From Chitinophagales bacterium (GTDB lineage: Bacteria > Bacteroidota > Bacteroidia > Chitinophagales > Chitinophagaceae), in the NCBI GenBank assembly GCA_017303335.1, contig JAFLBK010000001.1, positions 1,785,632 to 1,849,631 of the forward strand: DNA of 64,000 nt. The letters run 5' to 3'. The position numbers and the translations under genes were made by a program. Shown here piece after piece: positions 40,007 to 64,000 of the stretch. Each line of letters starts with the position of its first letter. Positions within the stretch are counted from its first letter, which is position 1. Below the pieces are notes generated by a model. That model saw nothing but the letters and a program-made list of their open reading frames with translations, had not been told where the DNA came from and searched no databases.

Positions 40007-40178
40007 ATGTTAGTGGAGGCTGTATGTTCGCCCGGTTGGCGATGATTTTAGGATTTGTGATTTCGAATTTACCGGATTTTGGTGAAGTATCAGGTCAACC
40101 CCTTGCCGCTGCCCGGCTTTGTTTTTATGCTGAAATTTGCTTGTCAGGCCCCCATTGCAGCCAATGCCCGTGTTGTAC
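40007..40178 (-). repeat. attC-like site S0 (class A, truncated outer end)
   Basis: The right end is intact (CCCCCATTGCAGCCAATGCC then GTTGTAC). The left end has lost its RYYYAAC and inner-stem arm, being replaced by unrelated sequence near 40007-40016. It would be the last attC of the array and probably can no longer recombine. Confidence 0.7.
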
Positions 40179-40198
40179 GCTGTACCTTTCGATTCTTC

Positions 40199-40474
40199 TT
40201 ATGAATTGTAGCCCCAAGAGTTTCGTAACTGCTGAAGCATCTCTTTGGGAATATTGTAGGCTTTTAATATGGGCTTCCCAAATTGCCCAGCTACACCATA
40301 TATTACACCTGATTTTAGCCCATTTAACTTTGTAATATCTGCGCAATCGACAAGAAAACTACTTTTTACATTCCCCTTTATTTTGGTAACACTTCCTTCT
40401 GATATTTTGATAATAAATGTGGGATTCTGAATCCAACAAAATATGACTTTCAGGTTTAATAAAAGATTGTTCAT
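40199..40474 (-). CDS. Cassette 1: small hypothetical protein
   Basis: 91 residues, no signal peptide. An N-terminal hydrophobic stretch (LLLNLKVIFCWI) is followed by IKISEGSVTKIKGNVKSSFL and GVIYGVAGQFGKPILKAYNIP. The strand-rich middle resembles small single-domain cassette proteins, but I do not recognise the family. The flanking cores GTTGTACGCTGTACC and GGTATAGCGTACAAC are complementary at 14 of 15 positions. Confidence 0.65.
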   Translation of the reverse strand: MNNLLLNLKVIFCWIQNPTFIIKISEGSVTKIKGNVKSSFLVDCADITKLNGLKSGVIYGVAGQFGKPILKAYNIPKEMLQQLRNSWGYNS

Positions 40475-40521
40475 AATGAAATCAAAGATCGACTAATTTA
40501 TGGAGTGTAAAAATGGTATAG

Positions 40522-40724
40522 CGTACAACGAGCAGGTATTGCCGAAGTGCAGGGAATAGAATTCCGTCCGCCCCGGCTAACTGCTGCTGAATAAAGATAT
40601 AAAAGCTGATGATATGCACATAGCTAAATAGATAAGGTCAAGCTGGATATGCAGCTCAATAAAGTTACAACAGTTGAAACACGGCTTCCGTCAGCCTGCA
40701 TTTTGGCAATACCCATGTTGTATG
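40522..40724 (-). repeat. attC-like site S1 (class C)
   Basis: CGTACAAC ... GTTGTATG, with inner arms GGTATTGCCGAAGTG and CATTTTGGCAATACC. About 200 bp; the body contains the TTCCGTCCGCC word of class C. Confidence 0.8.
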
Positions 40725-40802
40725 TTCGCCCTTCGTCTTGGTGATTTGAAGTGAAAGTATGTGTCCACCGAAGCAGGGTGTGTCCCGGAAGCGTGGGAAC
40801 AA

Positions 40803-40868
40803 GACAGGCTCTTTTGCAAGGTTGGCTTTTGTGTGTCGACTTTGTGTGCCTTGCAAATGTGCCTGACT
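40803..40868. repeat. Nested hairpin copy 1 (left end of cassette 2)
   Basis: Inner arms TTTTGCAAGG / CCTTGCAAA and outer arms CAGGC / GCCTG around a GTGTGTCG-rich loop. The same element recurs at 43930, 60047 and 62722 with different but self-complementary outer arms. Confidence 0.75.
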
Positions 40869-40879
40869 TGGTGCATCGG

Positions 40880-41788
40880 CTAATTAAGATGTCTATACTC
40901 ATTAGGCGTATAACCCGTTTCGCTTTTGAACAATCTGCTAAAATGCTGTGTATGCTTAAAGCCTAATTCATAAGCAATTTGACTAAGTGTCTTACTTTGG
41001 TCAAATATTTTTTCTTTGGCAAGATTGATTAGTTTGAATTGAATATGTTCCAGGGGAGATTTGCCTGTTTCTTTTTTAATCAAGTCTCCAAGATAGTTTG
41101 CTGATAAATGCAATTGGTCGGCGCAATATTTAACCGTCGGTATTCCTGCTTCGGATAAATCTTCCTTCTCAAAATATCCGTTAAGCAAGTTTTCAAACCT
41201 GATTAGTATATCCTTATTCGTGTCGCTCCTTGTAATAAATTGGCGGTCGTAAAAGCGAACACAATAACCCAACAGTAATTCAATATTGGCAACAATAAGC
41301 GTTTTACTATGTTTATCAATGGGGCGTTTAAGTTCGATTGAAATTTTTGAAATGCAATCCAGCACCGTCTGTTTTTCCTGTTCTGATAAATGCAATGCCT
41401 CAAAGACTTCGTAAGAGAAAAATGAATAATTCTTAATGTTATGCCCTAACGCTGTGCCTCTTAAAATGTCTTGGTGGAAAAGCAATGTCATGCCCTTATA
41501 GTTTGTCTGCGTTTCCATATTTGGCTCAACGGTCAGTATTTGTTCGGGAGCACTAAATATGATAGTCCCGTTCTGGTAATCGTAATAGTTTCGCCCATAC
41601 TTGATATTACCGCAATGAGTTTCTTTCAGGCTTATTGAATAAAATCCTAACCTAATTCGTGTCACTTCATCAAAATTCTGTGGGGTAGCTTCTGAAAGGT
41701 TTATTACACTCACCAGTGGGTGAAATGTTTCTACTCCGAATGCTGTATTGTACTCAGATATATGCTTTATGTCATAAATATTTTCCAT
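40880..41788 (-). CDS. Cassette 2: AraC-family transcriptional regulator
   Basis: About 302 residues from MENIYDIKH; upstream in-frame Mets exist at 41833 and 41896. The N-terminal effector-like domain spans about 1-180. The C-terminal double helix-turn-helix spans about 195-302: YCADQLHLSANYLGDLIKKETGKSPLEHI, then LSQIAYELGFKHTQHFSRLFKSETGYTPNEYR. It is divergent from the adjacent reductase and hydrolase genes, which it probably controls. Codon use is AT-rich, unlike the core genome. Confidence 0.9.
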   Translation of the reverse strand: MENIYDIKHISEYNTAFGVETFHPLVSVINLSEATPQNFDEVTRIRLGFYSISLKETHCGNIKYGRNYYDYQNGTIIFSAPEQILTVEPNMETQTNYKGMTLLFHQDILRGTALGHNIKNYSFFSYEVFEALHLSEQEKQTVLDCISKISIELKRPIDKHSKTLIVANIELLLGYCVRFYDRQFITRSDTNKDILIRFENLLNGYFEKEDLSEAGIPTVKYCADQLHLSANYLGDLIKKETGKSPLEHIQFKLINLAKEKIFDQSKTLSQIAYELGFKHTQHFSRLFKSETGYTPNEYRHLN

Positions 41789-41947
41789 GTTCTTCTCTTT
41801 ACTATGCAAAGAAACACCCTTTTTGGTAGCCATTTCTATTCGCTTTACAAAACCAGTAAAAGTGTTACAACAAACAGTAATCTGTATAAAGGACACCCCA
41901 TTTAGTCATCTCACCTTTGCATCAGAAAAATCAAAATTTAAAACAAA

Positions 41948-42793
41948 ATGCATACAGTAAAATTAAATAATAATGTAGAGATGCCCATTCTTGGTTTTGG
42001 TGTATTAATAGACGATGCTCAAAAGTGCGAACAAAGTGTTATTGATGCCATTAATACGGGCTACCGGTTAATTGATACGGCATCAGGGTACTTAAACGAA
42101 GCTGCAGTTGGCAACGGTATTAAGAAAAGCGGTGTAGCAAGGGAAGAACTATTCATTGCTACCAAACTTTGGATTCAAGAAGCAGGTTATGAGAAAACAA
42201 AACTTGCATTTGAGAAATCCTTAGAAAAACTGCAACTTGATTATTTGGACTTATACATGATTCATATGCCATTTGGCGATGTATATGGCTCATGGCGGGC
42301 TATGGAAGAACTTTACAAAGAAGGTAAGGTAAGAGCCATTGGAGTTTGCAATTTTCAGCCAGACCGTTTAATGGATTTAATGCTGTTCAATGAAATTAAG
42401 CCAGCAGTTTGCCAAATAGAAACACACCCATTTTGCCAGCAAAGTGATACCCTTAAATTTCTTCAAGATAACAATATACAAATAGAAGCCTGGGGGCCAT
42501 TAGCACAAGGGAAAAACGACATTTTCAATAATGAAATATTAGTTGCTATTGCCGGAAAGCATAACAAATCAGTTTCGCAAGTCGTACTTCGTTGGCATCT
42601 ACAGCGTGGCGTAGTTGCTATTCCAAAGTCAGTGAACAAGTATAGAATTGAACAAAATTTTCAGGTGTTTGATTTTGAATTAACCACTGAAGATATGAAT
42701 GCTATTACTCATTTGGATACTAAAACAACCTCATTTGACCTTCGGAATCCTGAACTGATTAAGATGATGGGAAAGTTTAAGTATGATATTTAA
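41948..42793 (+). CDS. Cassette 2: aldo-keto reductase
   Basis: 281 residues, NADPH-dependent TIM-barrel reductase of the 2,5-diketo-gluconate reductase type. The catalytic tetrad is visible: Asp and Tyr in LIDTASGYLNE, Lys in FIATKLWI, His in DLYMIHMPFGD. GKVRAIGVCNF and the NADP-binding IPKSVNKYRIEQNF motif are present. A promoter-like CACCTTTG lies about 30 bp upstream. One of the few cassette genes on the plus strand, opposite to the array direction. Confidence 0.93.
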   Translation: MHTVKLNNNVEMPILGFGVLIDDAQKCEQSVIDAINTGYRLIDTASGYLNEAAVGNGIKKSGVAREELFIATKLWIQEAGYEKTKLAFEKSLEKLQLDYLDLYMIHMPFGDVYGSWRAMEELYKEGKVRAIGVCNFQPDRLMDLMLFNEIKPAVCQIETHPFCQQSDTLKFLQDNNIQIEAWGPLAQGKNDIFNNEILVAIAGKHNKSVSQVVLRWHLQRGVVAIPKSVNKYRIEQNFQVFDFELTTEDMNAITHLDTKTTSFDLRNPELIKMMGKFKYDI

Positions 42794-42832
42794 AAAAACA
42801 GTTTCAAATAAATCTCAAATAAAATAAAAGAT

Positions 42833-43876
42833 ATGAAGTCAATTAAATTAAAAAAAGCAGTGTTGGCATTACTCTGCTTAACAATCACAACAATGTCATT
42901 TGCACAATCAAAAAATGACTCTCTTACAAAAGCAAAAAAAACTCAAACAAAATTAAACTCAATTATTATGGAACGAGTAACTTTCAAAAACAATGGAGTA
43001 ACGATGGTTGGCAATCTTTACTATCATGAACACATGGATAGAACAAAGAAATATCCAGCTATTGTATGTACACACGCAGCCGGAATGGTTAAAGAACAGG
43101 CTTCCGGTTTATATGCCCAAAAATTGTCAGAACAAGGATTTATTACACTTGCCTTTGATGCTTCACATCAAGGCGAAAGTGGTGGCGAACCTCGTTTTTT
43201 AGAAGCCCCTGCTGAAAGAGTAGAAGACATTAAAGCAGCAGTTGATTACCTAACCACATTGCCTTTTGTAGATGCAGATAAAATTGGTGCATTTGGTATT
43301 TGTGCAGGTTCAGGGTACTCTATTCAGGCAGCAACTACTGACCATCGCATCAAAGCTGTAGCAGGCACAAGTGGTACCGATGCCGGAGCAGCCATTCGTG
43401 AAGGTTGGTTAGGCGACCAACCTGCTGCCGTACAATTGCAAATACTTGATATGGTTTCTAAAGAACGCACTGCAGTTGCCAACGGTGCAAAACCTACTTA
43501 TGGTAACTATGTACCAGAAGCCGTTGACCTGAAAGCCCCGGTTACTATGAATGAGGCTTATGAATACTATCGTACTCCTCGTTGTCAAAAACCTAATTCT
43601 CAAAACAAAGTGCTTTTGCTGAGCCTTGACAAAGTGATGGCATTTGATGCTTTTAAAAATATGGAAACACTTTTAACACAACCATTGTTGATGGTTGTTG
43701 GAAGCAAATCAGATGCGATGTATTTAACAGACAGGGCAATTAGTAAAGCTACTTCGTCTGTGTCTAAAGAGAAGTTTGTAATTGAAGGTGCTACTCACGT
43801 AGATTTATATGATAAACCACAATATGTTGACCAGGCTGTAAAAAAGATGGCTGAATTTTATAAAGCCAAATTGTAA
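42833..43876 (+). CDS. Cassette 2: secreted alpha/beta hydrolase (dienelactone-hydrolase-like)
   Basis: 347 residues with a signal peptide (1-25, ending TTMSFAQ). After a linker comes an alpha/beta-hydrolase domain: FDASHQGESGGEPRF, nucleophile elbow GAFGICAGSGYS with Cys in the nucleophile position (G-x-C-x-G), and a C-terminal His in EGATHVDLYDKP. Such Cys-type hydrolases resemble dienelactone hydrolases. It is 40 bp after the reductase, so the two likely form an operon. Confidence 0.88.
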   Translation: MKSIKLKKAVLALLCLTITTMSFAQSKNDSLTKAKKTQTKLNSIIMERVTFKNNGVTMVGNLYYHEHMDRTKKYPAIVCTHAAGMVKEQASGLYAQKLSEQGFITLAFDASHQGESGGEPRFLEAPAERVEDIKAAVDYLTTLPFVDADKIGAFGICAGSGYSIQAATTDHRIKAVAGTSGTDAGAAIREGWLGDQPAAVQLQILDMVSKERTAVANGAKPTYGNYVPEAVDLKAPVTMNEAYEYYRTPRCQKPNSQNKVLLLSLDKVMAFDAFKNMETLLTQPLLMVVGSKSDAMYLTDRAISKATSSVSKEKFVIEGATHVDLYDKPQYVDQAVKKMAEFYKAKL

Positions 43877-43929
43877 AGATTAAAAGCTGATAAGAATTCC
43901 GTCAGCCGGGGTGTGTGGGTTGTGTGTTG

Positions 43930-44000
43930 GCATTTTTAGCTCTTGGCAAGGTTGGCTTCGTGTCTGGGCATTGTGAGCCTTGCCATGTGCTAAAAATTGC
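43930..44000. repeat. Nested hairpin copy 2 (right end of cassette 2)
   Basis: Inner arms GGCAAGG / CCTTGCC and outer arms TTTTTAGC / GCTAAAAA. The inner arm pair differs from the other copies by a compensated substitution (TTGCAAGG to TTGGCAAGG-type). Confidence 0.75.
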
Positions 44001-44062
44001 GTGGGGAAGCTTGGTAAAGTCATGGTTTGTGTCAAACTGCAAGCTGTGTCCCAATAGGGTGA

Positions 44063-44260
44063 CATACAACGTTCGAGCATTTACGCTGTTGGAGGGAGGA
44101 TTTGTACGTCCGCCCGGACGGCGATGCTTTTAGGATTTGTGAGTTCGAATTTACGGTAGTTTGTCTGAGGATCAGGTCCAGCCCAGAACTGATGCCTGGC
44201 TTTGGGTTTTAGCTGATGTTCGCTTGTCTGGCCCCAATAGCGTAAATGCCTGTGTTAGCG
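44063..44260 (-). repeat. attC-like site S2 (class B)
   Basis: CATACAAC ... GTTAGCG, inner arms GCATTTACGCTG / TAGCGTAAATGC. The CATACAAC core pairs with GTTGTATG at the far end of cassette 2, 3.3 kb away. Confidence 0.85.
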
Positions 44261-44271
44261 GAAGTTATGGC

Positions 44272-44724
44272 TTAGTTCTCTGCAATCGCCATAGCATAGT
44301 CCGTTATTTCCGTAAATAAAATTGACAATCGTTTAATGTCATCACCCCTGTCGAATTCAAAAAAAGGATAATCGAAAAGCAAACATGTGAAATCTCCAAA
44401 GTATTCAACTCGCCCACCCTCTATTTTTTTGGAAATTATGTACGATTTAAGTTTGTTATGAAATTCAATTGGAGCAGTATCGTAATAATTAACTACAATC
44501 GATAAAGGTATCCCAAATTGCTCCCATAGGTCGTACCAAATGCCAAAAAAGACATCACATTTTATCGGCTTTTCCTTATAATAAAAACCAATTTCCTCAT
44601 TAGAATCTCTTGACCATTTTAACCCCTCATATGATTGAAATAATTCCACAATCATTTCGGTAAACATTTTTAACTCCCTAGGAACACGAGGATTGAATGA
44701 ATATGGTCTATCGTTATTTTCCAC
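44272..44724 (-). CDS. Cassette 3: hypothetical cytosolic protein
   Basis: 150 residues, no signal peptide or TM helix. Rich in aromatic and acidic residues (FGIWYDLWEQFG, FDYPFFEFDRGDD). No family recognised; the size and composition resemble immunity-type proteins, but that is only an impression. The cassette cores match: GTTAGCGGAAGTTA pairs with TAATTTCCGCTAAC. Confidence 0.65.
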   Translation of the reverse strand: MENNDRPYSFNPRVPRELKMFTEMIVELFQSYEGLKWSRDSNEEIGFYYKEKPIKCDVFFGIWYDLWEQFGIPLSIVVNYYDTAPIEFHNKLKSYIISKKIEGGRVEYFGDFTCLLFDYPFFEFDRGDDIKRLSILFTEITDYAMAIAEN

Positions 44725-44754: not shown

Positions 44755-44952
44755 CGCTAACGCCCCCAGCATTTACGCTGTTGGAGGGAGGAGGTGTTCC
44801 GTCCGCCTGGTTGGGGATGCTTTTAGGGTTTGTGAGTTTGAAATTACCGCGTTTTGTCTTAGGATTAGGTCAGCCCAGAACTAATGCCTGGCTTTGGGTT
44901 TATGCTGAAGTTCGCTTGTCAGGCCCCAATAGCGTAAATGCCTATGTTAGGC
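44755..44952 (-). repeat. attC-like site S3 (class B)
   Basis: CGCTAAC ... GTTAGGC, inner arms GCATTTACGCTG / TAGCGTAAATGC. The spacer after the left core is GCCCCCA rather than GTTCGA. Confidence 0.85.
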
Positions 44953-45535: not shown

Positions 45536-45735
45536 GCCTAACGCCCCCAGCATTTACGCTGTTGGAGGGAGGAGGTCTTAGGTCTGCCCGGTAGGGGATG
45601 ATTTTAGGATTTGTGAGTTCAAAATTAGTGTGTTTTGTCTTAGGATCAGGTCAAGCCCAGAACAGATGCCTGGCTTCGGGTTCTAGGTTGAAGTTCGCTT
45701 GTCAGGCCCCAATAGCGTAAATGCCCGTGTTGGCT
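45536..45735 (-). repeat. attC-like site S4 (class B)
   Basis: GCCTAAC ... GTTGGCT. The left core pairs with GTTAGGC of cassette 4, and the right core followed by GCAG belongs to cassette 5. Confidence 0.85.
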
Positions 45736-45743: not shown

Positions 45744-46052
45744 TTAAAGCTTAGTTAACCATTCAGGTTTATTAAGCTTAAGGTACCCTTTAAATTCTGC
45801 TTTTGAAAATTCGGAAAGTCCATTGAAATATCTCTTTGAGAAAGTTGAAGTTCGAACCATGATCTCTGCTAATGATTCGCCACAAGAACTTTGGATAATA
45901 TTATCTTCATTTGGATCCGAAGCACATTGGTACAAAGCCAACAAAACCTCTTCGCCGTCATAGTCTGCTAAATCCATTGCACAATCATCTCGTAGACCTA
46001 AGTCGGCAGTTTTGTCAAGAAGATACTTAAGTAGATATTCTTTTTCTTTCAT
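45744..46052 (-). CDS. Cassette 5: small helical protein
   Basis: 102 residues from MKEKEYLLKYLL (a longer frame would start inside the attC core). Helical pattern with HEAT-like units: CAMDLADYDGEEVLLALYQCASD and SCGESLAEIMVRTSTF. Such single-HEAT proteins often act as immunity or adaptor proteins; no specific assignment. Cassette cores: GTTGGCTGCAGTTG pairs with CAATTGCAGCCAAC. Confidence 0.68.
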   Translation of the reverse strand: MKEKEYLLKYLLDKTADLGLRDDCAMDLADYDGEEVLLALYQCASDPNEDNIIQSSCGESLAEIMVRTSTFSKRYFNGLSEFSKAEFKGYLKLNKPEWLTKL

Positions 46053-46072
46053 TTTACTGTCTATACAATTGC

Positions 46073-46268
46073 AGCCAACGTTCAAGCATTGGCGCAGTGG
46101 GAGAGAGGCTTTGTTCGTCTGCCCGGCCGCGGATGCTTTTAGAATTTATGAATTTGAAGTTACTGGGTTTTACTGAAGGATCAGGTCAACCCCTGACCGA
46201 TGCCTGGCTTTGTTTTATGCTGAAGTCTGGGTGTCAAGCCCCCATTGCCGCCAATGCCCATGTTAGCA
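46073..46268 (-). repeat. attC-like site S5 (class A)
   Basis: AGCCAAC ... GTTAGCA, inner arms GCATTGGCGCAGTGGG / CCCATTGCCGCCAATGC with one extra G/C on the right arm. Confidence 0.87.
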
Positions 46269-46909: not shown

Positions 46910-47106
46910 GCTAACGTTCGAGGCTTGCCGCAGGGCTGGTATTTTATAACAGTCAGCCCGGCAACTGAAGCCGATTAAAAAACTGATGCTGAAGTTAACA
47001 ACTAAAAGCCAAATAGAATTCGGTCAAGCCCGATATTAGCTGATAGCAGTACAACTGATGATTGTTATTCCGTCCGCCAGCCTTGCGGCAAACCTTTTGT
47101 TGGTGG
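46910..47106 (-). repeat. attC-like site S6 (class C variant)
   Basis: GCTAAC ... GTTGGTGG, inner arms GGCTTGCCGCAGGG and CCTTGCGGCAAACC. The body differs from classes A and B and includes TTCCGTCCGCC. Confidence 0.8.
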
Positions 47107-48039: not shown

Positions 48040-48237
48040 CACCAACGTTCGAGCATTGGCGCAGTGGGAGTGAGGCTTTGTTCGTCTGCCCGGCCCGCGA
48101 ATGCCCTTAGAATTTGAAAATTTGAATTTACTGGGTTTTACTGAAGTATCAGGTCAACTCCTGACCGCTGCCTGGCTTTGTTTTTAAGCTGAAATCTGCT
48201 TGTCCAGCCCCCATTGCCGCCAATGCCTTTGTTGGCT
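48040..48237 (-). repeat. attC-like site S7 (class A)
   Basis: CACCAAC ... GTTGGCT; the left core pairs with GTTGGTGG of cassette 7. Inner arms as in S5. Confidence 0.87.
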
Positions 48238-48928: not shown

Positions 48929-49126
48929 AGCCAACGTTCGAGCATTGGCGCAGTGGGAGTGAGGCTTTGACCGTCTGCCCGGCCCGCGAATGCTTTTAGA
49001 AGTTGGGAATTTGAATTTACTGGGTTTTACTGGAGGATCAGGTCGATCCCTGACCGCTGCCTGGCTTTGTTTTAGGCTGAAGTATGGGTGTCAAGCCCCC
49101 ATTGCGGCCAATGCCTTTGTTAACTG
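48929..49126 (-). repeat. attC-like site S8 (class A)
   Basis: AGCCAAC ... GTTAACTG. The left core pairs with GTTGGCTGAAG of cassette 8. Confidence 0.87.
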
Positions 49127-49415: not shown

Positions 49416-49612
49416 AGTTAACGGTCCTGCATTTACGCTGTTGGAGGGAGGAGGTGTTAAGTCCGCCCGGTTGGTAATACTTTTAGAGTTGTGAATTTGA
49501 AATTACGTTGTTTTGTCTGAGGATCTGGTCCAGCCCAGAACTGATGCCTGGCTTTGGGTTTTAGCTGAAGTTCGCTTGTCATGCCCCAATAGCGTAAATG
49601 CCTTTGTTGGCT
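49416..49612 (-). repeat. attC-like site S9 (class B)
   Basis: AGTTAAC ... GTTGGCT, inner arms GCATTTACGCTG / TAGCGTAAATGC. Confidence 0.85.
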
Positions 49613-49973: not shown

Positions 49974-50170
49974 AGCCAACGTTCAAGCATTGGCGCAGTG
50001 GGAGTGAGGCTTTGTTCGTCTGCCCGGCTGCGGATGCCTTTAGAATTTACGAATTTGAATTTACCGGATTTTGGTGAAGAATCAAGTCAACCCCAGACCG
50101 CTGACTGGCTTTGTTTTTAAGCTGAAATTAGCTTGTCAGGCCCCCATTGCCGCCAATGCCCCTGTTAGCT
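49974..50170 (-). repeat. attC-like site S10 (class A)
   Basis: AGCCAAC ... GTTAGCT; the right core belongs to cassette 11. Confidence 0.87.
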
Positions 50171-50583: not shown

Positions 50584-50779
50584 AGCTAACGTTAAAGCAT
50601 TGGCGCAGTGGGAGTGAGGCTTTGTACGTCTGCCCGGCGGCGAATGCTTTTAGAATTTAGGAATTCGAATTAAAGCGTTTTGCTCAAGGATCTGGTCAGC
50701 CCCGGACTGCTGCCTGGCTTTGTTTTTAAGCTGAAATTAGCTTGTTAAGCCCCCATTGCTGCCAATGCCGCTGTTGTGT
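50584..50779 (-). repeat. attC-like site S11 (class A)
   Basis: AGCTAAC ... GTTGTGT, inner arms GCATTGGCGCAGTGGG / CCCATTGCTGCCAATGC. Confidence 0.87.
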
Positions 50780-52147: not shown

Positions 52148-52345
52148 ACACAACGTTCGAGCATTTACGCTGTTGGAGGGAGGATTTGTACGTCCGCCCG
52201 GTTGGCGATGCTTTTAGGGGTTGTGAGTTGGAAATTACAGTGTTTTGTCTTAGGAGTTGGTCCAGCCCAGAACTGAAGCTTGGCTTTGGGTTTTAGGTTG
52301 AAGTATGCTTGTCAGGCCCCAATAGCGTAAATGCCTGTGTTGTGC
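52148..52345 (-). repeat. attC-like site S12 (class B)
   Basis: ACACAAC ... GTTGTGC; the left core pairs with GTTGTGTGCA of cassette 12. Confidence 0.85.
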
Positions 52346-53426: not shown

Positions 53427-53625
53427 GCACAACGTCCCCAGCATTTACGCTGTTGGAGGGAGGAGATGTTTGTCCGCCCGCTTGGTAAAGCTTTTAGGGT
53501 TTGTGTATTTGAAATTACCGCATTTTATTTGAGGATCAGGTCCAGCCCAGAACACATGCCTGGCTTTGGGTTTTAGCTGAAAATATGCTTGTCAGGCCCC
53601 AATAGCGTAAATGCCTATGTTGTGC
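53427..53625 (-). repeat. attC-like site S13 (class B)
   Basis: GCACAAC ... GTTGTGC. Cores on both sides of cassettes 13 and 14 share the extension GTTCGTGC. Confidence 0.85.
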
Positions 53626-53638: not shown

Positions 53639-54007
53639 TCACTCTTTTATGATTTTAAAATTTACTTTCCTGAGCATGTATATAATACCGGAGATTATCA
53701 GCCCAACGAGTAGTATAAATAAACTATGACTACCAAATGTGTCTGCAATAACTTGTGTAAAAGTTCTAAAATCTCTCGTATTTTCATTTAAATCTCTTAC
53801 TGACATACCTTGACAACTTCCGGAATGACTAACGCCTAAGGAGCATTTATAACTACAGCTAGCGACCGAATACGTTGGTGCATCATATGTATAATTCCAG
53901 TCTACTGGGATTACATGTAGTATGATAACTAATGATATACTTATTAAAAATCCCCAAAGACATGAGGTTAGTAATTGTTCAGAAACGGATATTGTTACTT
54001 GTTTCAT
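53639..54007 (-). CDS. Cassette 14: membrane protein with Cys-rich loop
   Basis: 122 residues with two hydrophobic segments (about 12-32 and 92-112). The connecting extracytoplasmic loop holds four Cys (SVASCSYKCSLGVSHSGSCQG), presumably disulphide-bonded. No family recognised. The small gene upstream in the same cassette is 21 bp away. Confidence 0.68.
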   Translation of the reverse strand: MKQVTISVSEQLLTSCLWGFLISISLVIILHVIPVDWNYTYDAPTYSVASCSYKCSLGVSHSGSCQGMSVRDLNENTRDFRTFTQVIADTFGSHSLFILLVGLIISGIIYMLRKVNFKIIKE

Positions 54008-54028
54008 TTATTGGATAATATCTAACTA

Positions 54029-54226
54029 TCAAAAGCCATTAGTTTTATTAACTATCTCCTTTATTAAAGAAGAAACATCCGGAGGCAAGTAGTCTAAAAG
54101 TTCTGGTTCAATTTCTATTATTTCATCATCAGAAATTTTATAAACTGGTTGCTTCCCATTGTAATTGTCAATGTAGGAAAAGGTTAATTGATTAAACTGG
54201 CTTTTAAAATATTCTATTTTGTCCAC
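54029..54226 (-). CDS. Cassette 14: 65-residue acidic protein
   Basis: Small, acidic, no signal peptide; contains KISDDEIIEIEPELLDYLPP. Could be a regulatory or antitoxin-like partner of the neighbouring membrane protein, but nothing in the sequence proves it. Confidence 0.6.
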   Translation of the reverse strand: MDKIEYFKSQFNQLTFSYIDNYNGKQPVYKISDDEIIEIEPELLDYLPPDVSSLIKEIVNKTNGF

Positions 54227-54258: not shown

Positions 54259-54453
54259 GCACAACGTTCAAGCATTGGCGCAGTGGGAGTGCGGCTTTGT
54301 TCGTCTGCCCGGCTGGCGATGCCTTTAGAAGTTAAGAGTTTGAAGTTATCGGGTTTACCCAAGGATCAGGTCAACCCCTGACCGCTGCCTGGCTTTGTTT
54401 TATGCTGAAGTATGGGTGTCAAGCCCCCATTGCCGCCAATGCCGCTGTTAGCG
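54259..54453 (-). repeat. attC-like site S14 (class A)
   Basis: GCACAAC ... GTTAGCG, class A inner arms. Confidence 0.87.
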
Positions 54454-54465: not shown

Positions 54466-55142
54466 TCATTTTATTTTTGCGTAAATTTTTCCTTTCCAGA
54501 ATATTGGTGTTTTGGGATCTTCGTCGTTTTTAAAATTGAAACTGAATATGGCTTTGATAATTCCTTTGGCCCAAAGTGTTTTATCAAGTGTTATATACCC
54601 GTCTGTGCAATAGAATAGCGCACTTCCTCCCGAAACTACACTAACTAAATTGATAACTGCATAACAAGTGTCTTTGATAAATGAAAGCTCAAGACTACAG
54701 TGTGTACCTTCATTTAATTGAGAGGCTAGAAAAACGGTGTCTCCTGATTTTCTTGACGCTTCGATAAAGTTAGTGCCAGCCCATTCATAACACCAAGCAG
54801 TTGATGACAGTGAATGAGGAATGTGTGAGGTGTCAACAAATTTGTAAAAGGACTTTAATGAATCTTTTTTTATTTTCCCCTTAATGTCGAACATGTCATG
54901 AACTTCATCCGGACAAAACCGTCGCATGTCACTTGCCCATATGAATTTCTAAATACTCCTTCTGGATATTCCCATTTGTGCCTAAAAGAAAAATCTCCCT
55001 TTAATTCTTTTAGCCAACTAATTTTAATTGGGGAGGAGTTCGTGATCTTTATCTTTCCTTGATTTGGTCTTGCGCTACGTCTTTGAGCAAATGAAGGCAA
55101 GCAGAGATATAGGGAAAGAAATAATAAGATTAATGTCTTCAT
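54466..55142 (-). pseudogene. Cassette 15: secreted protein gene with a frameshift
   Basis: Two overlapping minus-strand frames fit one protein. The first (54870-55142) starts with a signal peptide (MKTLILLFLSLYLCLPSFAQ) and runs 90 residues. The second (54466-54927, 153 residues) continues it without its own start context. The 58-bp overlap is read in two frames, as after a single indel near 54930. The product would be about 215 residues, unknown function, ending FWKGKIYAKIK. Either a real mutation or a sequencing error. Confidence 0.6.
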
Positions 55143-55179: not shown

Positions 55180-55375
55180 CGCTAACGTTCAAGCATTGGC
55201 GCAGTGGGAGTGAGGCTTTGTTCGTCTGCCCAGCTGGCGGTGCCTTTAGAATTTAAGAATTTGAAGTTACCGGACTTTTCTCAAGTAGCAGGTCAACCCC
55301 CGACCGCTGCCTGGCTTTGTTTTATGCTGAAGTATGGGTGTCTAGCCCCCATTGCCGCCAATGCCCGTGTTAGCG
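55180..55375 (-). repeat. attC-like site S15 (class A)
   Basis: CGCTAAC ... GTTAGCG. The left core with preceding GAC pairs with GTTAGCGGTTC of cassette 15. Confidence 0.87.
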
Positions 55376-55387: not shown

Positions 55388-55975
55388 CTATTTCGCCGGA
55401 TAAATTCCAAATTTGTCTGAAGCATTACCATAATAAATTCCGTCCCAGCCTCTTTTACCATTGTCAATAAAAGTTTGTAATTCTATTTTTTCATACTTGG
55501 GATTGACGATTTCAAAATCATCAAACCAAATTTTCATATCAATATGTTTGTTCCCACCGTCTTGAAACAAATCTATTGTGTTTTGTCTGCCATGTTGGTT
55601 TTCAGAGTTGAAGTCAAAGCTCAATCTGTCAAGCCAATGATTTTCGTCATTGCAATTAATGAATTCCCAACCGTAAATTGAAACATGTTTAAATTCTTCA
55701 ACTTTTTCTAAAATTTGTTCCGGTTCAAACTTTACTACTTGTGCAGATTTGTCGTCCCAGCGACCAAGTCTATATGAAGCAATAAATTTCCCAATTGGTT
55801 TGAACACAAATTGAACTCTATTGTCAGTTGGAACTTGTCCATTAATGTCAAGTGCGACTGGAGAAAAAGTAACAACCACTATTTCCTTTTCCTTTTGAAA
55901 TTCTACACCAAGAATTGTCGCTTCATTGAGTGCTAGATTTATTCCATCAATTATGTCTTGAGAAAATGTTGCCAT
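55388..55975 (-). CDS. Cassette 16: hypothetical cytosolic protein
   Basis: 195 residues, no signal. Beta-rich with VVTFSPVALDINGQVP, VQFVFKPIGKFIASYRLGRWDD, SIYGWEFINCND and HIDMKIWFDDFEIVNP. No domain recognised; the regular strand pattern suggests one globular domain. Cores GTTAGCGGCT / AGCCGCTAAC. Confidence 0.68.
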   Translation of the reverse strand: MATFSQDIIDGINLALNEATILGVEFQKEKEIVVVTFSPVALDINGQVPTDNRVQFVFKPIGKFIASYRLGRWDDKSAQVVKFEPEQILEKVEEFKHVSIYGWEFINCNDENHWLDRLSFDFNSENQHGRQNTIDLFQDGGNKHIDMKIWFDDFEIVNPKYEKIELQTFIDNGKRGWDGIYYGNASDKFGIYPAK

Positions 55976-56000: not shown

Positions 56001-56198
56001 CGCTAACGGACAGGTATTGCCGATGGTGGGGAATTAGAATTCCGTCCGCCGGAACTATTGCCTGGTTTTTTGATAAAGTTAAATATTAAGAACCAAAGCT
56101 GGGCTTTATTCGTCGAGCCCCGAACCACAGCACAGCAAAATTACCGCTGCTGATTGTTCCAATGTCCAGCCCCACTATTGGCAATACCAATGTTAGCG
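56001..56198 (-). repeat. attC-like site S16 (class C)
   Basis: CGCTAAC ... GTTAGCG, inner arms GGTATTGCCGATGGTGGGG / CCCCACTATTGGCAATACC; body with GAATTCCGTCCGCCGG. Confidence 0.85.
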
Positions 56199-57319: not shown

Positions 57320-57516
57320 CGCTAACGTTCAAGCATTGGCGCAGTGGGAGTGAGGCTTTGTACGTCTGCCCGGCTGGGGAATGCTCTTAGAATTTAAGAG
57401 TTTTAAGTTACCGAGTTTTGGCCAAGGATCAGGTCAACCCCTGACCGCTGCCTGGCTTTGTTTTGTGCTAAAGTTTGGGTGTCAAGCCCCCATTGCTGCC
57501 AATGCCGCTGTTGGCT
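57320..57516 (-). repeat. attC-like site S17 (class A)
   Basis: CGCTAAC ... GTTGGCT, inner arms GCATTGGCGCAGTGGG / CCCATTGCTGCCAATGC. Confidence 0.87.
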
Positions 57517-58112: not shown

Positions 58113-58309
58113 AGCCAACGGTCAAGCATTGGCGCAGTGGGAGTGAGGCTTTGTTCGTCTGCCCGGCCGCGGATGCTTTTAGAATTTAGAAATTTGAAAT
58201 TACTGGATTTTGTTGAAGTTTCAGGTCGACCCCTGACCGCTGCCAGGCTTTGCTTTTATGCTGAAGTATGGGTGTCTAGCCCCCATTGCGGCCAATGCCC
58301 ATGTTAGCC
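58113..58309 (-). repeat. attC-like site S18 (class A)
   Basis: AGCCAAC ... GTTAGCC; class A arms (CCCATTGCGGCCAATGC on the right). Confidence 0.87.
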
Positions 58310-58527
58310 GGTCGGTTACCTTCGAGTTGATAAAAATGCTGAATCAGGGTCCAGTTGTCGGGCGTGGCTGTGCATGTACTGAAGTTCAATTGGCGGTACC
58401 AAGCCACTCTTCAAATTAAGTACTGCTTACCTCCAACTAATTGAAAAGAGCCCGAATAAAGCTGACTGATGAGTTACTGCTGAAGTTTGATTCCTGTCGC
58501 TCAGTAAAGCAGTAACTGCCGGCTAAC
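58303..58527 (-). other. Cassette 19: gene-free cassette
   Basis: 225 bp between cores GTTAGCCGG and CCGGCTAAC (complementary over 9 bp). No ORF of meaningful length on either strand. It contains a hairpin with arms GTTACTGCT / AGCAGTAAC at about 58473-58516. It may carry a small RNA or a promoter rather than a protein; nothing more can be seen. Confidence 0.7.
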
Positions 58528-58716
58528 GGTCCTGCATTGGCGCAGTGGGAGTGAGGCTTTGTTCGTCTGCCCAGCTGCAGATGCTTTTAGAATTTGGGAA
58601 TTTGAAATTACCGGGTTTTGCCAAAGGATCAGGTCAACCCCTGACTGCTGCCTGGCTTTGTTTTATGCTGAAGTATGGGTGTCAAGCCCCCATTGCTGCC
58701 AATGCCCTTGTTGTAC
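58521..58716 (-). repeat. attC-like site S19 (class A)
   Basis: GGCTAAC ... GTTGTAC; contains a CTGCAG site in the body at about 58575. Confidence 0.87.
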
Positions 58717-59158: not shown

Positions 59159-59354
59159 GTACAACGTTCAAGCATTGGCGCAGTGGGAGTGAGGCTTTGT
59201 TCGTCTGCCCAGCTTGCGATGCTTTTAGAATTGAGAAATTTGAATTTACCGGATTTTGTTGAAGTATCAGGTCAACCCCTGACCGCTGCCTGGCTTTGTT
59301 TTATGCTGATGTATGGATGTCAAGCCCCCATTGCTGCCAATGCCGCTGTTAGCT
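59159..59354 (-). repeat. attC-like site S20 (class A)
   Basis: GTACAAC ... GTTAGCT, class A inner arms. Confidence 0.87.
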
Positions 59355-59767: not shown

Positions 59768-59778
59768 ATATTAATGCC

Positions 59779-59973
59779 AGCTAACGTTCGAGCATTTACG
59801 CTGTTGGAGGGAGGATTTGTACGTCCGCCCGGTTTGTAAAGCTTTTAGGCTTTGTGTACTTGAAATTACGATGATTTACTTAGGATCAAGTCAGCCAAGA
59901 ACTAATGCCTGGCTTTGGGCTTTTGCTGAAGCTCGCTTGTCAGGCCCCAATAGCGTAAATGCCTTTGTTATGC
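59779..59973 (-). repeat. attC-like site S21 (class B)
   Basis: AGCTAAC ... GTTATGC, inner arms GCATTTACGCTG / TAGCGTAAATGC. Confidence 0.85.
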
Positions 59974-60046
59974 GTTCGCCCTTCTTCTCTGTCTGTCAAG
60001 TTGTGTTCTGTGTCCAACGAAGCAGAGTGTGTCCCCGAAGCGTTGG

Positions 60047-60120
60047 CAAAAAGCATACTCTTTTGCAAGGTTGGCTTTGTGTGTCGGCTATGTGTGCCTT
60101 GCAAATGTGTATGCTTTTGT
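60047..60120. repeat. Nested hairpin copy 3 (left end of cassette 22)
   Basis: Outer arms AAAAGCATAC / GTATGCTTTT, inner arms TTTTGCAAGG / CCTTGCAAA. The upstream flank resembles the flank of copy 1 (both contain CGAAGCAG, GTGTGTCCC and GAAGCGT). Confidence 0.78.
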
Positions 60121-60128
60121 GTGTTGGA

Positions 60129-61064
60129 TTATCGTGGCCCCATAAAACGGTCACCATTAAAGTGTATCATGTGTTCGGGAAAATCTACAACCCAAACTTC
60201 TGTCTCCCATGCGATGTTTGTCGAATGCTTTTTAAATTCTGCAAAGTCGGGAAATGCCGAAACATAAACTTTGCCTGCTTTGCAGTCTTTGAGTAATTCC
60301 TCCAATTCAACAATTCGTTTTGGTGAAACAGGACCATGAGAAGTAACCGCTTCAATTAAGTAAAGCCAATTTTTCTTTCTGTCAAACAGAACTACGTCAG
60401 GTAACTTGCTATGTTCTGTAATTGGTATGCCTATTTCTTTTAAAACTTTCTTGTCAACATATAGGTCTTTGTTTGCAGTATCGCCCAAATAAAGAACTTC
60501 GCTGCCATTTGCAAAACGTGCAGCAAAATCTTGAATGATTGCAGCTTGCACAACATTATGTTTGCCAGCAGAAAGTTTAAGTGTTTTACCGTTACTTAAT
60601 TTTACAGGAATTAAATTTTGCTTTCTCTCTTTTAAGTATTTCTTTGAAAGTTCGCCAACTTCCGACTTAAATCTTTCTGATGCTTCTTTCCATGCCTTTG
60701 TCCCGAATGTTCTAATGGCTTCAAGTGCTTCTTTTGTTATTGCATAATGAGCATTGGGGCTGTTAACAGGTAGAGTAGGATTGTCAGGATTGTAGTCAGC
60801 TATTCTTGCTTGAACAAATTGATGTAGTACTTGGCGTCGAAATGTTTCTCTCGTATTGGGAGCATATTCCTTTTTGTAAACTTCCTTACAAAATGCCATA
60901 ATGCCTTTTGAAACTTTTAGACTTGCTTTAGTTGCCTTGCTCCAATTGCCACGGGGCTTAATATCACAAAGGGCAAGCAATGTGTAGGCTGAAATTTCAT
61001 TTTGTTGTGCTGCTGGCAACCCTAATTCTTTAAGGATTTCTTTTGCTTCATCAATTTTGTTCAT
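60129..61064 (-). CDS. Cassette 22: BsuBI/PstI-family restriction endonuclease
   Basis: 311 residues matching the BsuBI/PstI type II endonuclease family, whose characterised members cut CTGCAG. An N-terminal helical domain (about 1-170) is followed by a catalytic domain with KLSAGKHNVVQAAIIQDFA, and a PD-(D/E)xK-like core LPDVVLFDRKKNWLYLIEAVTSHGP (Asp near 223, Glu near 237, written here as LPDVVLF and LIEAVTSHGP). VYVSAFPDFAEFKKH follows. It overlaps the methyltransferase gene by 14 bp, a typical R-M arrangement with the methyltransferase first. Confidence 0.9.
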   Translation of the reverse strand: MNKIDEAKEILKELGLPAAQQNEISAYTLLALCDIKPRGNWSKATKASLKVSKGIMAFCKEVYKKEYAPNTRETFRRQVLHQFVQARIADYNPDNPTLPVNSPNAHYAITKEALEAIRTFGTKAWKEASERFKSEVGELSKKYLKERKQNLIPVKLSNGKTLKLSAGKHNVVQAAIIQDFAARFANGSEVLYLGDTANKDLYVDKKVLKEIGIPITEHSKLPDVVLFDRKKNWLYLIEAVTSHGPVSPKRIVELEELLKDCKAGKVYVSAFPDFAEFKKHSTNIAWETEVWVVDFPEHMIHFNGDRFMGPR

Positions 61065-62652
61065 AAGCGAATATATGTTCTATATCAAAGTAGTTGTTTA
61101 TGATTTCATCAACCTTTGATTGTGTAAAGTCGTTTAGTAAGATTATTTGGTTGCCAATTTGTTTTATATCTTCTAATGGGGGCAAAGGCATTTCCCTTAA
61201 TTCGGTCGCACTCACATTTATATTTCCGTTGAAGGTTCTGAAATATGTGTCAAAAAGATTGCTATTTAACAAAGCAGCAAGTCCTAATATTTCATTTCTT
61301 TCAAGATGCCCTTTAGGTCTGTAAATGTAATTGAGATGATTTTCGACACCGATATATTCTGCTTGGGTAATGTCAACAAAATAAGGAGTTGCGACCAATC
61401 TGCTCTTATCGTCCTTTGCACTAAAGCGGCGAAGGAAAACATAATTCTTATTCGGAATCAAAAGCGATTTGGTTTCTTCGCAAAGTTGAATGTATTGAGG
61501 TTTGTTTCTTTTAGCAACCGGCCATTCAAATTGCATTTTAGCTGTGTTGATAAGCTGATAAAGCGGAACTAAAAAAACTGTTCCATTTTGATATTGCTCA
61601 AACAAGTATTGAGTTGCTCTGAATGAAACAACTGGGCCTGTTGAGATTTGAATATCGTATTGACGTAAACTACCTGCCCATGATTTAAACAGCTTGATTA
61701 CTTTATCGTCTGTTTCATTTGTTGGAAGATGAATGATTTTTTCTTTTGACTTTAAGTCAATCAGTTCATCGGTTTTATAAATCTTTTCAGTAAAACTTTC
61801 GATGTCTCTAATTCCATTAGAATGTGTTACAAGTATAGAAGGCAAATGTCCATTTAGCTTTTGCTTTTTGCCTTTCAATATTAGTGTTTCTTGCAAAACG
61901 CTATCACGGTCAAAAGTATCAGTCCTTGAGCCGAATAAGTGTATTTGTTCTATTTCAATTTCCTGAAAGAATGCTTCACGGAAAGCCCTGAAATAATTTC
62001 CTGATGCAAAACTTCTCGGTGTGATAAAAATTAGTTCACCGCCTTCTTTTAAAAGTTTTGTAGCAACCATCATAAAGATTGAGTAGATGTTTGGTTGCCC
62101 CCAAACAATAGACTTTGCTACTGTCGCCCGTTTATCATCCTTAGATATTTTGAAATAGGGTGGATTTGAAATTACAATATCGTAAGTGGCATTTTTCGGT
62201 TCAGAAAAAAGTGTCGCCGAAACTTGAAAGCAATCTTTATTTTCAAGAACAAAATCATTTGTGTCAAGCGTTGCTTTAAACTTGATTTTATATTGCTTTA
62301 GCCATTTGCCTAAATAGTCAAGCACTGCTTGTGTGTAAGGGAGAATGTCTTGGTCGGTTTCGTAAACTACAAGTTCAATTTCTTTTAAACTGTCATTATG
62401 TTTTGCAATTGTCTCAATGAGTGAACTTGAAAGAATGGCCATACCGCAACCTGGGTCAAGTATTTTGAATTTTTCTTTTGTTTGTTTGGCAAGTCCCGCC
62501 ATGAAGTGAGCAATTTCTGTCGGAGTAAAAAATTGTCCATTGTCCTTCTTGTGCTGTGTCGTAACGGTTTTAGCATAAAGCTGTCCAACCCTGTCTGCAA
62601 AGTGGCTGGGTAACTCATTGGTGAGTGGTTTTATGTCTATCGCTACTGTCAT
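61051..62652 (-). CDS. Cassette 22: N6-adenine DNA methyltransferase (PstI/BsuBI-type partner)
   Basis: 533 residues. SAM motif I KILDPGCGMAILSSSL (around 46-61), VVYETD (motif II) and catalytic NPPY in DIVISNPPYFKIS (around 168) define an N6-adenine methyltransferase. ITPRSFASGNYFRAFRE follows, and the C-terminal half (about 300-533) is the target-recognition part. NNGQFFTPTEIA-like DNGQFFTPTEIAHFMAGL at about 36 is typical of type II/IIG enzymes. It protects the host from the adjacent endonuclease. Confidence 0.92.
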   Translation of the reverse strand: MTVAIDIKPLTNELPSHFADRVGQLYAKTVTTQHKKDNGQFFTPTEIAHFMAGLAKQTKEKFKILDPGCGMAILSSSLIETIAKHNDSLKEIELVVYETDQDILPYTQAVLDYLGKWLKQYKIKFKATLDTNDFVLENKDCFQVSATLFSEPKNATYDIVISNPPYFKISKDDKRATVAKSIVWGQPNIYSIFMMVATKLLKEGGELIFITPRSFASGNYFRAFREAFFQEIEIEQIHLFGSRTDTFDRDSVLQETLILKGKKQKLNGHLPSILVTHSNGIRDIESFTEKIYKTDELIDLKSKEKIIHLPTNETDDKVIKLFKSWAGSLRQYDIQISTGPVVSFRATQYLFEQYQNGTVFLVPLYQLINTAKMQFEWPVAKRNKPQYIQLCEETKSLLIPNKNYVFLRRFSAKDDKSRLVATPYFVDITQAEYIGVENHLNYIYRPKGHLERNEILGLAALLNSNLFDTYFRTFNGNINVSATELREMPLPPLEDIKQIGNQIILLNDFTQSKVDEIINNYFDIEHIFAYEQN

Positions 62653-62721
62653 GCCAACAAATTTACTAAAAGTATTGCTGTTTAAAGCGATTTCGATTTA
62701 TGAGATGGTCGCAGTGTGTCG

Positions 62722-62796
62722 GCAAAATTTTAGCTCTTTTGCAAGGTTGGCTTTGTGTCTGGGTTTTGTGTGCCTTGCAAATGTGCTAAAATGTGC
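62722..62796. repeat. Nested hairpin copy 4 (right end of cassette 22)
   Basis: Outer arms ATTTTAGC / GCTAAAAT, inner arms TTTTGCAAGG / CCTTGCAAA. The right flank ends CCAATAGGGTGAC before the core, as in copy 2. Confidence 0.78.
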
Positions 62797-62860
62797 GGTG
62801 GCTTGTTGAGGTCTTCGCTGTCAAACCCCAATGAAGAACGGAAAGCTCCAATAGGGTGAC

Positions 62861-63059
62861 GCATAACGCCCCCAGCATTTACGCTGTTGGAGGGAGGAGG
62901 TGTTCCGTCCGCCCGGTTGGGGATGATTTTAGTACTAGTGAGTTTGAAATTACGGTGATTTCTTGGAGAAGCATGTCCAGCCCAGAACATATGCCTGGCT
63001 TTGGGTTTTAGCTGAAGTTCGCTTGTCAAGCCCCAATAGCGTAAATGCCTTTGTTGGCT
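62861..63059 (-). repeat. attC-like site S22 (class B)
   Basis: GCATAAC ... GTTGGCT; the left core pairs with GTTATGCGT at the other end of cassette 22, 2.9 kb away. Confidence 0.85.
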
Positions 63060-63346
63060 GCTGTACTTTTTTTGACGAAATAGTATAGAGTGGTCACCAC
63101 TACCCACGATAAGAAGATGTCAATGAGAAGATTTGTGACAATCCATTCAGAATTAGGAATTGTACTACCACTAAGCCAAAACTGCCGGTAGTAAGTAAAG
63201 GGAAATCCAACATCAAGTTTGTATGCTTCATTTTTCCTATAATAATGTAGTGGGTTTATTTGTATTAAAAATGTTATGAAGGAAATGGAAAAGAACACAA
63301 ACGCAGATAGTATTGTTCCTTTAAAAAATACCCAAGTGGTTTTCAT
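63026..63346 (-). CDS. Cassette 23: membrane protein running into the attC site
   Basis: 106 residues with two hydrophobic helices (about 8-30 and 66-88) and an extracytoplasmic loop containing HYYRKNEAYKLDVG. The frame has no stop before the recombination core and continues about 11 codons into S22, ending at 63026. The last residues (AANKGIYAIGA) are therefore encoded by the attC and would change if the cassette moved. It is 7 bp from the other gene of the cassette. Confidence 0.68.
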   Translation of the reverse strand: MKTTWVFFKGTILSAFVFFSISFITFLIQINPLHYYRKNEAYKLDVGFPFTYYRQFWLSGSTIPNSEWIVTNLLIDIFLSWVVVTTLYYFVKKSTAANKGIYAIGA

Positions 63347-63353
63347 ATAAGTA

Positions 63354-63635
63354 TTAGAATTGGGAGATTAAGTACACTACCGGGATAAACAGAGCCAGTA
63401 ATCCAAGTGAAATTTGCTTGTATATTTTCGCTTCTTTTCTGTTCAATAACCATAATCCAAGAGCTGTAAGCACATTCAGTAATACCAGGAGGGGATAACC
63501 TATCATGAAGATAATTGGCGATTTATCTGAATTGTCGGTTACTACAATATAGATGAGACCAGCAATTATTGCTAGATTTAGGGTAATAGCAACTATTTTA
63601 TGAATTGTCAAGCTTCTGGAAAGAGATGTGATCAT
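63354..63635 (-). CDS. Cassette 23: small membrane protein
   Basis: 93 residues from MITSLSRSLTIHKIV (longer frame starts in the attC flank). Three hydrophobic segments (about 12-30, 37-60 and 70-90) separated by short charged loops. No family recognised. Likely co-expressed with the following membrane protein. Confidence 0.68.
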   Translation of the reverse strand: MITSLSRSLTIHKIVAITLNLAIIAGLIYIVVTDNSDKSPIIFMIGYPLLVLLNVLTALGLWLLNRKEAKIYKQISLGLLALFIPVVYLISQF

Positions 63636-63644
63636 AGGTATAGC

Positions 63645-63882
63645 AGCCAACGGTCCTGCATTGGCGAAGTACGTGGGAATTAGTATTTCGTCAAGCCGGG
63701 TTTGTGATTTTGGTTAAGATACGAAATTGCCTGGGTAACCAAATGCAGACAGCAGAACTAGGAGCGTAGCAAAAGACTGCTGGCGGCTAAGGTTAAAGTC
63801 AGACTAAGAACTGATGCTTGGTAGAGTTTTGAAGCTGAAGTTAGGGTGTCAAGCCCCGTATTTTGCCAATGCCTTGTTAGCT
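63645..63882 (-). repeat. attC-like site S23 (long variant)
   Basis: AGCCAAC ... GTTAGCT, 238 bp, inner arms GCATTGGCGAAGTACGTGGG / CCCCGTATTTTGCCAATGC. The middle differs from classes A-C, with extra sequence around 63730-63800. Confidence 0.8.
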
Positions 63883-63890
63883 GCTGTTTC

Positions 63891-64000
63891 TTAGTACTCA
63901 GACTTTTCGACATGAATCGTCCAGTTATCATCGATTCTTCGAGAAACTACTCTTGTATTTTCAAACCAACTGCCTTGAAAATTGGGGGCTAGACGTAAGC
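63891..64000 (-). CDS. Cassette 24: partial gene, 3' end only
   Basis: An open minus-strand frame enters from the right edge and ends at a TAA at 63891-63893, 9 bp from the GTTAGCT core, as in the other cassettes. The visible tail reads LAPNFQGSWFENTRVVSRR and DDNWTIHVEKSEY. Family unknown. Confidence 0.65.
   Translation of the reverse strand, partial: LRLAPNFQGSWFENTRVVSRRIDDNWTIHVEKSEY

Follow-up and report, generated by a model that had tools for sequence, protein, structure and literature searches.

The right-hand part of the 64,000-nucleotide stretch analysed here (the window, positions 1785632-1849631 of contig C1 in Chitinophagales genome G000, whose contigs are called C1-C6) holds structured repeats that alternate with short genes. 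Do these make up an integron, and if so, which enzyme moves the genes? We find that the repeats are very probably part of the chromosomal array of an integron-like system, and that a tyrosine recombinase without the insert of IntI integrases, encoded elsewhere in the genome, likely excises the cassettes as circles and inserts them again. The original prediction for this DNA was of an integron-like cassette array, and it is borne out by a test of cassette ends, by compensatory changes in the stem of the sites, by duplicated cassettes and by the junctions of one repeated cassette, cassette X.

Structure of the array

The array consists of 24 related structured sites, between 40030 and 63878, alternating with 23 cassettes, and the right edge of the window is the exact end of contig C1. 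The sites fall into six sequence classes, A to F (naming of this analysis), and those with callable ends are 187-230 nucleotides long.

40030..64000, minus strand: cassette array, genes reading leftwards, cut off by the contig end
40030..40174, minus strand: attC-like site 1, left end degenerate
40527..40719, minus strand: attC-like site 2, class E
44068..44256, minus strand: attC-like site 3, class B
44759..44948, minus strand: attC-like site 4, class B
45540..45733, minus strand: attC-like site 5, class B
46077..46264, minus strand: attC-like site 6, class A
46913..47101, minus strand: attC-like site 7, class C
48044..48233, minus strand: attC-like site 8, class A
48933..49121, minus strand: attC-like site 9, class A
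49420..49608, minus strand: attC-like site 10, class B
49978..50166, minus strand: attC-like site 11, class A
50588..50775, minus strand: attC-like site 12, class A
52152..52341, minus strand: attC-like site 13, class B
53431..53621, minus strand: attC-like site 14, class B
54263..54449, minus strand: attC-like site 15, class A
55184..55371, minus strand: attC-like site 16, class A
56005..56194, minus strand: attC-like site 17, class D
57324..57512, minus strand: attC-like site 18, class A
58117..58305, minus strand: attC-like site 19, class A
58525..58712, minus strand: attC-like site 20, class A
59163..59350, minus strand: attC-like site 21, class A
59783..59969, minus strand: attC-like site 22, class B
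62865..63055, minus strand: attC-like site 23, class B
63649..63878, minus strand: attC-like site 24, class F (long)

Structured sites alternating with AT-rich genes, nearly all on one strand, had been predicted, and all three features are present. The G+C content is 36% in the cassettes, 49% in the sites and 50% in the window left of the array. An open reading frame (ORF) of at least 60 residues is present in 22 cassettes (one cassette has none), and in 21 of these the longest ORF reads on the minus strand, in keeping with the single gene orientation expected of an integron. Four further contig ends of G000 have like sites (both ends of C5, the beginning of C3 and the end of C6), for a total of about 71 sites or fragments (73 BLAST rows, with two sites split). 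At the start of C3 (L076 1-120), an apparent insertion-sequence gene is inside the cassette array.

Cassette ends and the point of crossover

For each cassette, we compared the bases immediately beyond GTT at its start with those immediately beyond AAC at its end, using 50 cassettes of G000, 53 sites with both ends called, and 5000 permutations. Cassette ends are complementary at 307 of 400 positions (permutation mean 169.8, sd 8.8, maximum 206; 0/5000 as high), and the two ends of one site agree only at a level near chance. Complementary cassette ends with disagreeing site ends argue that the cassettes were inserted as circles, with the crossover at AAC/GTT. The result is clear in four of five other arrays: G016 (93/128; 0/5000 permutations as high), Rufibacter, which has sites of 58-60 nucleotides (57/80), Flavobacterium enshiense (48/64) and G026 (40/56), with 1/5000 permutations as high in each of the last three.

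Repeated cassettes point the same way. The first 127 nucleotides of cassette X are identical (127/127) at the end of C4, the start of C2 and the start of C5, with a fourth copy at 97%, and its neighbours switch exactly at AAC, being an attI-like site on C4 and C2 and an attC-like site on C5. Two further cassettes, of 640 and 1308 nucleotides, are each present twice, in identical form, in C5, and C1 and C5 share an identical terminal 112 bases. As far as sequence evidence goes, cassettes have moved by crossover at AAC/GTT, the exchange at a GTT core that is expected of an integron.

Hairpin structure and end signature of the sites

The sites keep a hairpin structure while their sequence varies. 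We aligned the stems of 22 of the 24 window sites, excluding degenerate site 1 and long site 24, to a model that was drawn by the analyst from the same sequences it was scored on. An outer helix of 4 pairs and an inner helix of 16 pairs have 99.8% of 440 cells paired, and pairing is lost when the partner strand is slid. Nine of the 20 pairs are altered on both sides, with 48 doubly changed cells observed compared to 14.1 in shuffles. Predicted DNA folds pair the site ends with each other in 52/53 sites, with the bottom strand the more stable in 42/53, so that folds and stem alignment together give the sites the palindromic, structure-conserved arms of attC. A conserved pair of extrahelical bases could not be defined in the site alignment.

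The ends carry a signature of their own. Over 105 sites from six arrays, cassettes start with GTTNNNNGNNA, the G of which is present in 99 and the A in 104 sites, and at the cassette end a C stands five bases before AAC in 100. The base opposite the A of GTTNNNNGNNA is T in just 2/105, so position 8 is nearly always a mismatch. The sites had been expected to obey RYYYAAC ... GTTRRRY, the core boxes of IntI-type sites. They do not: strictly, each box occurs in 0/19 callable window sites, and across the six arrays GTTRRRY is found in 11/105 and RYYYAAC in 8/105.

A recombinase gene beside an attI-like site

G000 (completeness 100) has no match to the IntI model TIGR02249 above its 265-bit cut-off, and hence no integrase assignable to the IntI family. 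The best stretch (97.8 bits) belongs to a 405-residue tyrosine recombinase near the end of C4, which as a whole scores 176.2 bits. Its gene reads towards an attI-like site 237 nucleotides downstream, and cassette X starts beyond that site, an arrangement that, judged by sequence, would be that of an attI beside an integrase gene. A second attI-like site, at 19.7 kb on C5, is identical to that of C4 in 127 of 169 columns, and a third is at the start of C2. No recombinase was seen beside the C5 and C2 sites, so one enzyme would have to serve three attI-like sites in trans. The five other arrays have 6-28 GTTs ahead of their first site, and the best of these agrees with its cassette end at 6-7 of 7 positions.

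The recombinase has an N-terminal domain of ~80 residues, a SAM-like domain and a catalytic domain. R252, K279, H344, R347, H370 and Y379, which we take to be the catalytic residues, are invariant in 16 aligned relatives. Of 99 array-type or near recombinases, 97 have a distance of 63-74 residues from KGxxDR to HxLRH (107 in the other two), and in 28/28 IntI the distance is 107 residues; these counts cover proteins with both motifs, with 8 more array-type or near recombinases and 3 more IntI missing a motif. By this spacing, the C4 recombinase and nearly all array-type or near recombinases have no counterpart of the IntI-specific insert (I2 helix region) in the catalytic domain. The suggestion that an integrase with the IntI-specific patch would be found is thus not upheld for G000, where none was found and the recombinase at the attI-like site has no such patch. 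The N-terminal domain shows a weak and tentative similarity to HARP (PF07443) and XPB domains. HARP domains are described as conferring annealing-helicase activity (PMC4035279, in excerpt).

The best NCBIfam score of the recombinase is to XerA (206.1 bits, cut-off 220), and it scores below the cut-offs of the XerC and XerD equivalogs (172.8 and 162.7 bits, cut-offs 335.15 and 329.6). Its nearest named relatives are from Ferruginibacter, a Chitinophagaceae genome and Terrimonas, which makes it likely that the host is Chitinophagaceae-like. Foldseek with a predicted model of the Terrimonas relative (mean pLDDT 82.6, pTM 0.50) gave the IntI-attC structure 2a3v as top match (E 1e-15). We made a quick tree of 66 rows, including 12 IntI and 13 rows marked as array-associated by the analyst. 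A branch with support 100 separates the 12 IntI from all other rows, the 13 array-associated ones included, and the recombinase is separate from two Xer-like proteins of G000.

Arrays and recombinases in relatives

Of 46 further genomes of the genus, at least 18 have relatives of the recombinase (43-56% identity, aligning from within residue 14). In 16/19 cases, G000 included (p 0.004), the contig end is closer to the 3' end of the gene than to its 5' end, and nine recombinases have the 3' end less than 700 bases from the contig end, compared to none on the 5' side. Among the best 40 named loci, the 3' end is nearer in 32 and the 5' end in 3 (5 ties, p 4e-7); among 40 more distant named matches the counts are 17 and 17, with 6 ties. 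Repeat arrays that break assemblies would account for the bias. Arrays directly 3' of the recombinase gene were seen in G016, G044, G026 and G008, and in Flavobacterium enshiense, Flavobacterium sp., Rufibacter, Winogradskyella, Carboxylicivirga and others (56/80 named loci examined).

A polarity-specific hairpin detector, with the opposite strand for comparison, shows the same bias. In 29 loci chosen by hand from the 80, the 3' flanks (123 kb) contain 37 marked sites, with 2 on the opposite strand, and the 5' flanks (250 kb) contain 4, with 3 on the opposite strand. Around 10 recombinases on large contigs, the 3' side has 26 marked sites, with 2 on the opposite strand, and the 5' side has 3, with 1 on the opposite strand. 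Such sites are present in the single-contig genomes G110 and G133, which have no TIGR02249 match above the cut-off, and in G133 neighbouring detector sites have matching ends in 3/6 pairs.

The recombinase belongs to a common family: its profile finds a match at E 1e-75 or better in 100 of 197 sampled genomes of the class, and at least 7820 candidates reach E 1e-30 among the 8000 scored. TIGR02249 is above its cut-off in 1/73 sampled genomes of the same class or nearer, and in 84/223 genomes in other classes of the phylum, a split counted by hand. In the set of relatives it is above the cut-off in 1/78 genomes, that of G063 (same order), which has a true IntI (421.9 bits) with no self-repeats within 12 kb around it (L146, L281). 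Few integrons are reported in Bacteroidetes in the excerpted text of PMC9024848. The expectation of rarity therefore holds, in this class, for integrons of the IntI type.

Two observations on relatives stand apart. In G044 (L121 3221-3708, 8490-8981, 11513-12016), several attC-like sites continue into a common stretch of ~270 nucleotides that ends in another site. In Saccharibacillus kuerlensis (Bacillota; L185 11062-13144), three attC-like repeats of ~105 nucleotides are 3' of a related recombinase, with cassette ends that are complementary when compared by eye.

Cassette contents in the window

The cassette contents are like those of integrons, with small unknown genes, a toxin, a restriction pair and assorted domain proteins.

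40199..40474, minus strand: gene, 91 residues, PF12321 DUF3634
40720..44067, no strand: large cassette, 3 genes, the only cassette with its longest ORF on the plus strand
40880-41896, minus strand: AraC-type regulator, in the large cassette
41948-42793, plus strand: aldo/keto reductase, in the large cassette
42833-43876, plus strand: dienelactone-hydrolase-like, in the large cassette
44272..44724, minus strand: gene, 150 residues
44958..45472, minus strand: ParE-type toxin (44958-45254) and 77-residue upstream partner (45239-45472), likely the antitoxin
45744..46085, minus strand: gene, 113 residues
46275..46892, minus strand: gene, 205 residues
47110..47986, minus strand: two genes, 111 residues and YfbU-domain, 170 residues
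48248..48895, minus strand: GldM-domain protein, 215 residues
49135..49407, minus strand: gene, 90 residues
49617..49979, minus strand: gene, 120 residues
50199..50549, minus strand: gene, 116 residues
50796..52112, minus strand: TPR protein, 438 residues
52378..53430, minus strand: cupin protein (52378-52926) and 162-residue gene
53639..54226, minus strand: 122-residue and 65-residue genes
54466..55142, minus strand: 153-residue and 90-residue ORFs
55388..55975, minus strand: gene, 195 residues
56193..57332, minus strand: gene, 379 residues
57528..58073, minus strand: gene, 181 residues
58306..58524, no strand: 219-nucleotide cassette, no ORF of 60 residues
58725..59081, minus strand: gene, 118 residues
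59360..59767, minus strand: gene, 135 residues
60129..62652, minus strand: BsuBI/PstI-type endonuclease (60129-61064) and Eco57I-type methylase (61051-62652)
63026..63650, minus strand: 106-residue and 98-residue ORFs
63889..64000, no strand: beginning of cassette Y; contig C5 finishes with identical 112 bases

The 219-nucleotide cassette, which has relatives (72-77% identity) in other C5 cassettes, may by its sequence be mobile and non-coding. Paired direct hairpin repeats, TTTGCAAGG ... CCTTGCAAA, lie near both ends of each of the two largest cassettes, of 3.3 and 2.9 kb (40760-40861 and 43943-43983; 60009-60109 and 62718-62785), and look like a second element type nested there.

Discussion

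The array resembles the sedentary chromosomal integrons of the Vibrio type, with which it shares tandem cassettes in one orientation, mostly of one gene each, hairpin sites ending in AAC and GTT with crossover at GTT, an attI-like site adjoining a tyrosine recombinase, and ParE-type and restriction cassettes. It differs in that the recombinase is without the IntI insert and outside the IntI clade, and in that the core is GTTNNNNGNNA rather than GTTRRRY. The window sites are also longer than the 57-141 nucleotides given for attC in the available part of PMC3053210, yet those of Rufibacter are not. As reported for Treponema integrons (PMC3607928, in excerpt), the recombinase gene is transcribed towards attI and in the cassette direction, but Treponema integrons use IntI. 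Compared with XerA and other Xer proteins, the recombinase has an extra N-terminal domain of ~80 residues and occurs with cassette arrays. IntegronFinder, as described in the excerpt of PMC9024848, seeks the integrase with hidden Markov model profiles and names attC clusters lacking an integrase CALINs, so the arrays here would at best be called CALINs, although they do have a recombinase, one outside the IntI family. Pseudomonas integron-like elements (ILEs, PMC4542609) and Vibrio SE elements (PMC9345347) are likewise termed integron-like or compared with integrons and have non-IntI tyrosine recombinases. However, each ILE is a single insertion into rulB with a xerD-type gene, attC- or attI-like inverted repeats were not detected in the attachment sites of the strand-biased SE elements, and neither is described as a cassette/attC array in the accessible portions of the two papers.

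By analogy with integrons, a cassette circle would be formed by recombination between two neighbouring sites, and would then insert at attI or at another site, with the crossover at GTT. The asymmetry of the site would explain why cassettes lie in one sense. Position and repetition suggest that the C4 recombinase is the catalyst that moves the cassettes, which would require it to act in trans on the three attI-like sites. Compensatory changes and polarity suggest that the enzyme recognises the attC-like site in the form of a folded single strand, and the extra N-terminal domain, in place of the I2 helix, may help to read it.

Several results weigh against this reading. The C4 contig ends within its first cassette, so continuity with the array of the window is not assembled, and in predicted folding the sites have just a moderate edge over shuffles (mean z -1.8, below -2 in 17/53). 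One other array, that of G044, fails the cassette-end test (21/40 over 5 cassettes, 1164/5000 permutations as high), and neighbouring detector sites on large contigs have matching ends in 1/2 pairs in each of G261 and G486 and in 0/2 in G110. The 3' flanks of the 10 large-contig recombinases have at least three sites in five cases, one in two and none in three, with attC-looking self-repeat arrays in G110 and G133 alone. Co-occurrence of recombinase and array within the genus is weak (one DNA query; 17, 11, 6, 13; Fisher p 0.075). Single-contig G039 has seven attC-like sites (L276 9032-17972) with no recombinase of the array type within the 20 kb read, making it an orphan array, and G018 (L279) has a shorter, divergent recombinase with attC-like repeats on its 5' side, which is the classical divergent order.

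The most serious alternative is that the recombinase handles the sites in Xer-like fashion as ordinary double-stranded DNA, the hairpin being a by-product of inverted binding sites. An enzyme without the insert that reads extrahelical bases in IntI, with XerA as its best NCBIfam score and no conserved pair of extrahelical bases definable in its sites, would fit this. Against it stand a 16-pair inner helix kept by compensatory changes while sequence varies, ends that pair in nearly every predicted fold, and hairpins almost all in one polarity, and we regard this explanation as unlikely. It is more doubtful still that we are looking at a canonical integron, with its IntI in an assembly gap or acting in trans and the I2-less recombinase at attI only incidentally. 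The G000 arrays are indeed broken at contig ends, and IntI-family matches are frequent in other classes of the phylum, with one in the same order. Set against this are the lack of any TIGR02249 match above the cut-off in G000, in 77/78 genomes of the relatives set and in the site-bearing single-contig genomes G110 and G133, site ends that are off the IntI core consensus, and an I2-less recombinase at the attI-like end in many genomes; such an integron is improbable. Repetitive hairpins of another kind spread between genes (REP-type elements, terminators, small inverted-repeat transposons) would likewise be intergenic, structured and at the 3' ends of genes, but elements of that kind would not give a cassette complementary ends and the element itself discordant ones, and would not gather 3' of a single recombinase family, and the cassette-end result leaves them virtually no credibility.

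We thus favour an integron-like system run by a recombinase without the IntI insert, and among titles and abstracts (preprints being outside the search) we found no report on integron arrays run by a non-IntI recombinase. The idea that the system was undescribed is to that extent not contradicted. Bacteroidota are among the phyla listed with integrons (PMC9668308, PMC8618304, both in excerpt), and no word in the main text of the metagenome survey PMC7370490 begins with Bacteroid. A survey of tyrosine recombinases states that the insert is not fully conserved in an integron-like subgroup, so such proteins may already have been seen; the available text mentions no array (PMC8138268).

A wider and more tentative possibility, which we rate at somewhat less than an even chance, is that this is a second, independent class of integron that pervades Bacteroidia and reaches Paenibacillaceae. 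Its I2-less enzymes would read a folded strand by means of a HARP-like domain at the N-terminus, together with an extended GTTNNNNGNNA arm that includes a mismatch, and single-strand cassette recombination would have arisen twice or preceded IntI. According to the excerpt of PMC7790495, cassette capture requires the I2 helix, and integron integrases alone recombine a single-stranded with a double-stranded site. With hairpin arrays next to recombinases that have no I2, the claimed necessity of I2 becomes directly testable. If the recombinase is active, a large system of gene capture in a major phylum has escaped surveys based on IntI, and bacteria would have a second way to collect genes.

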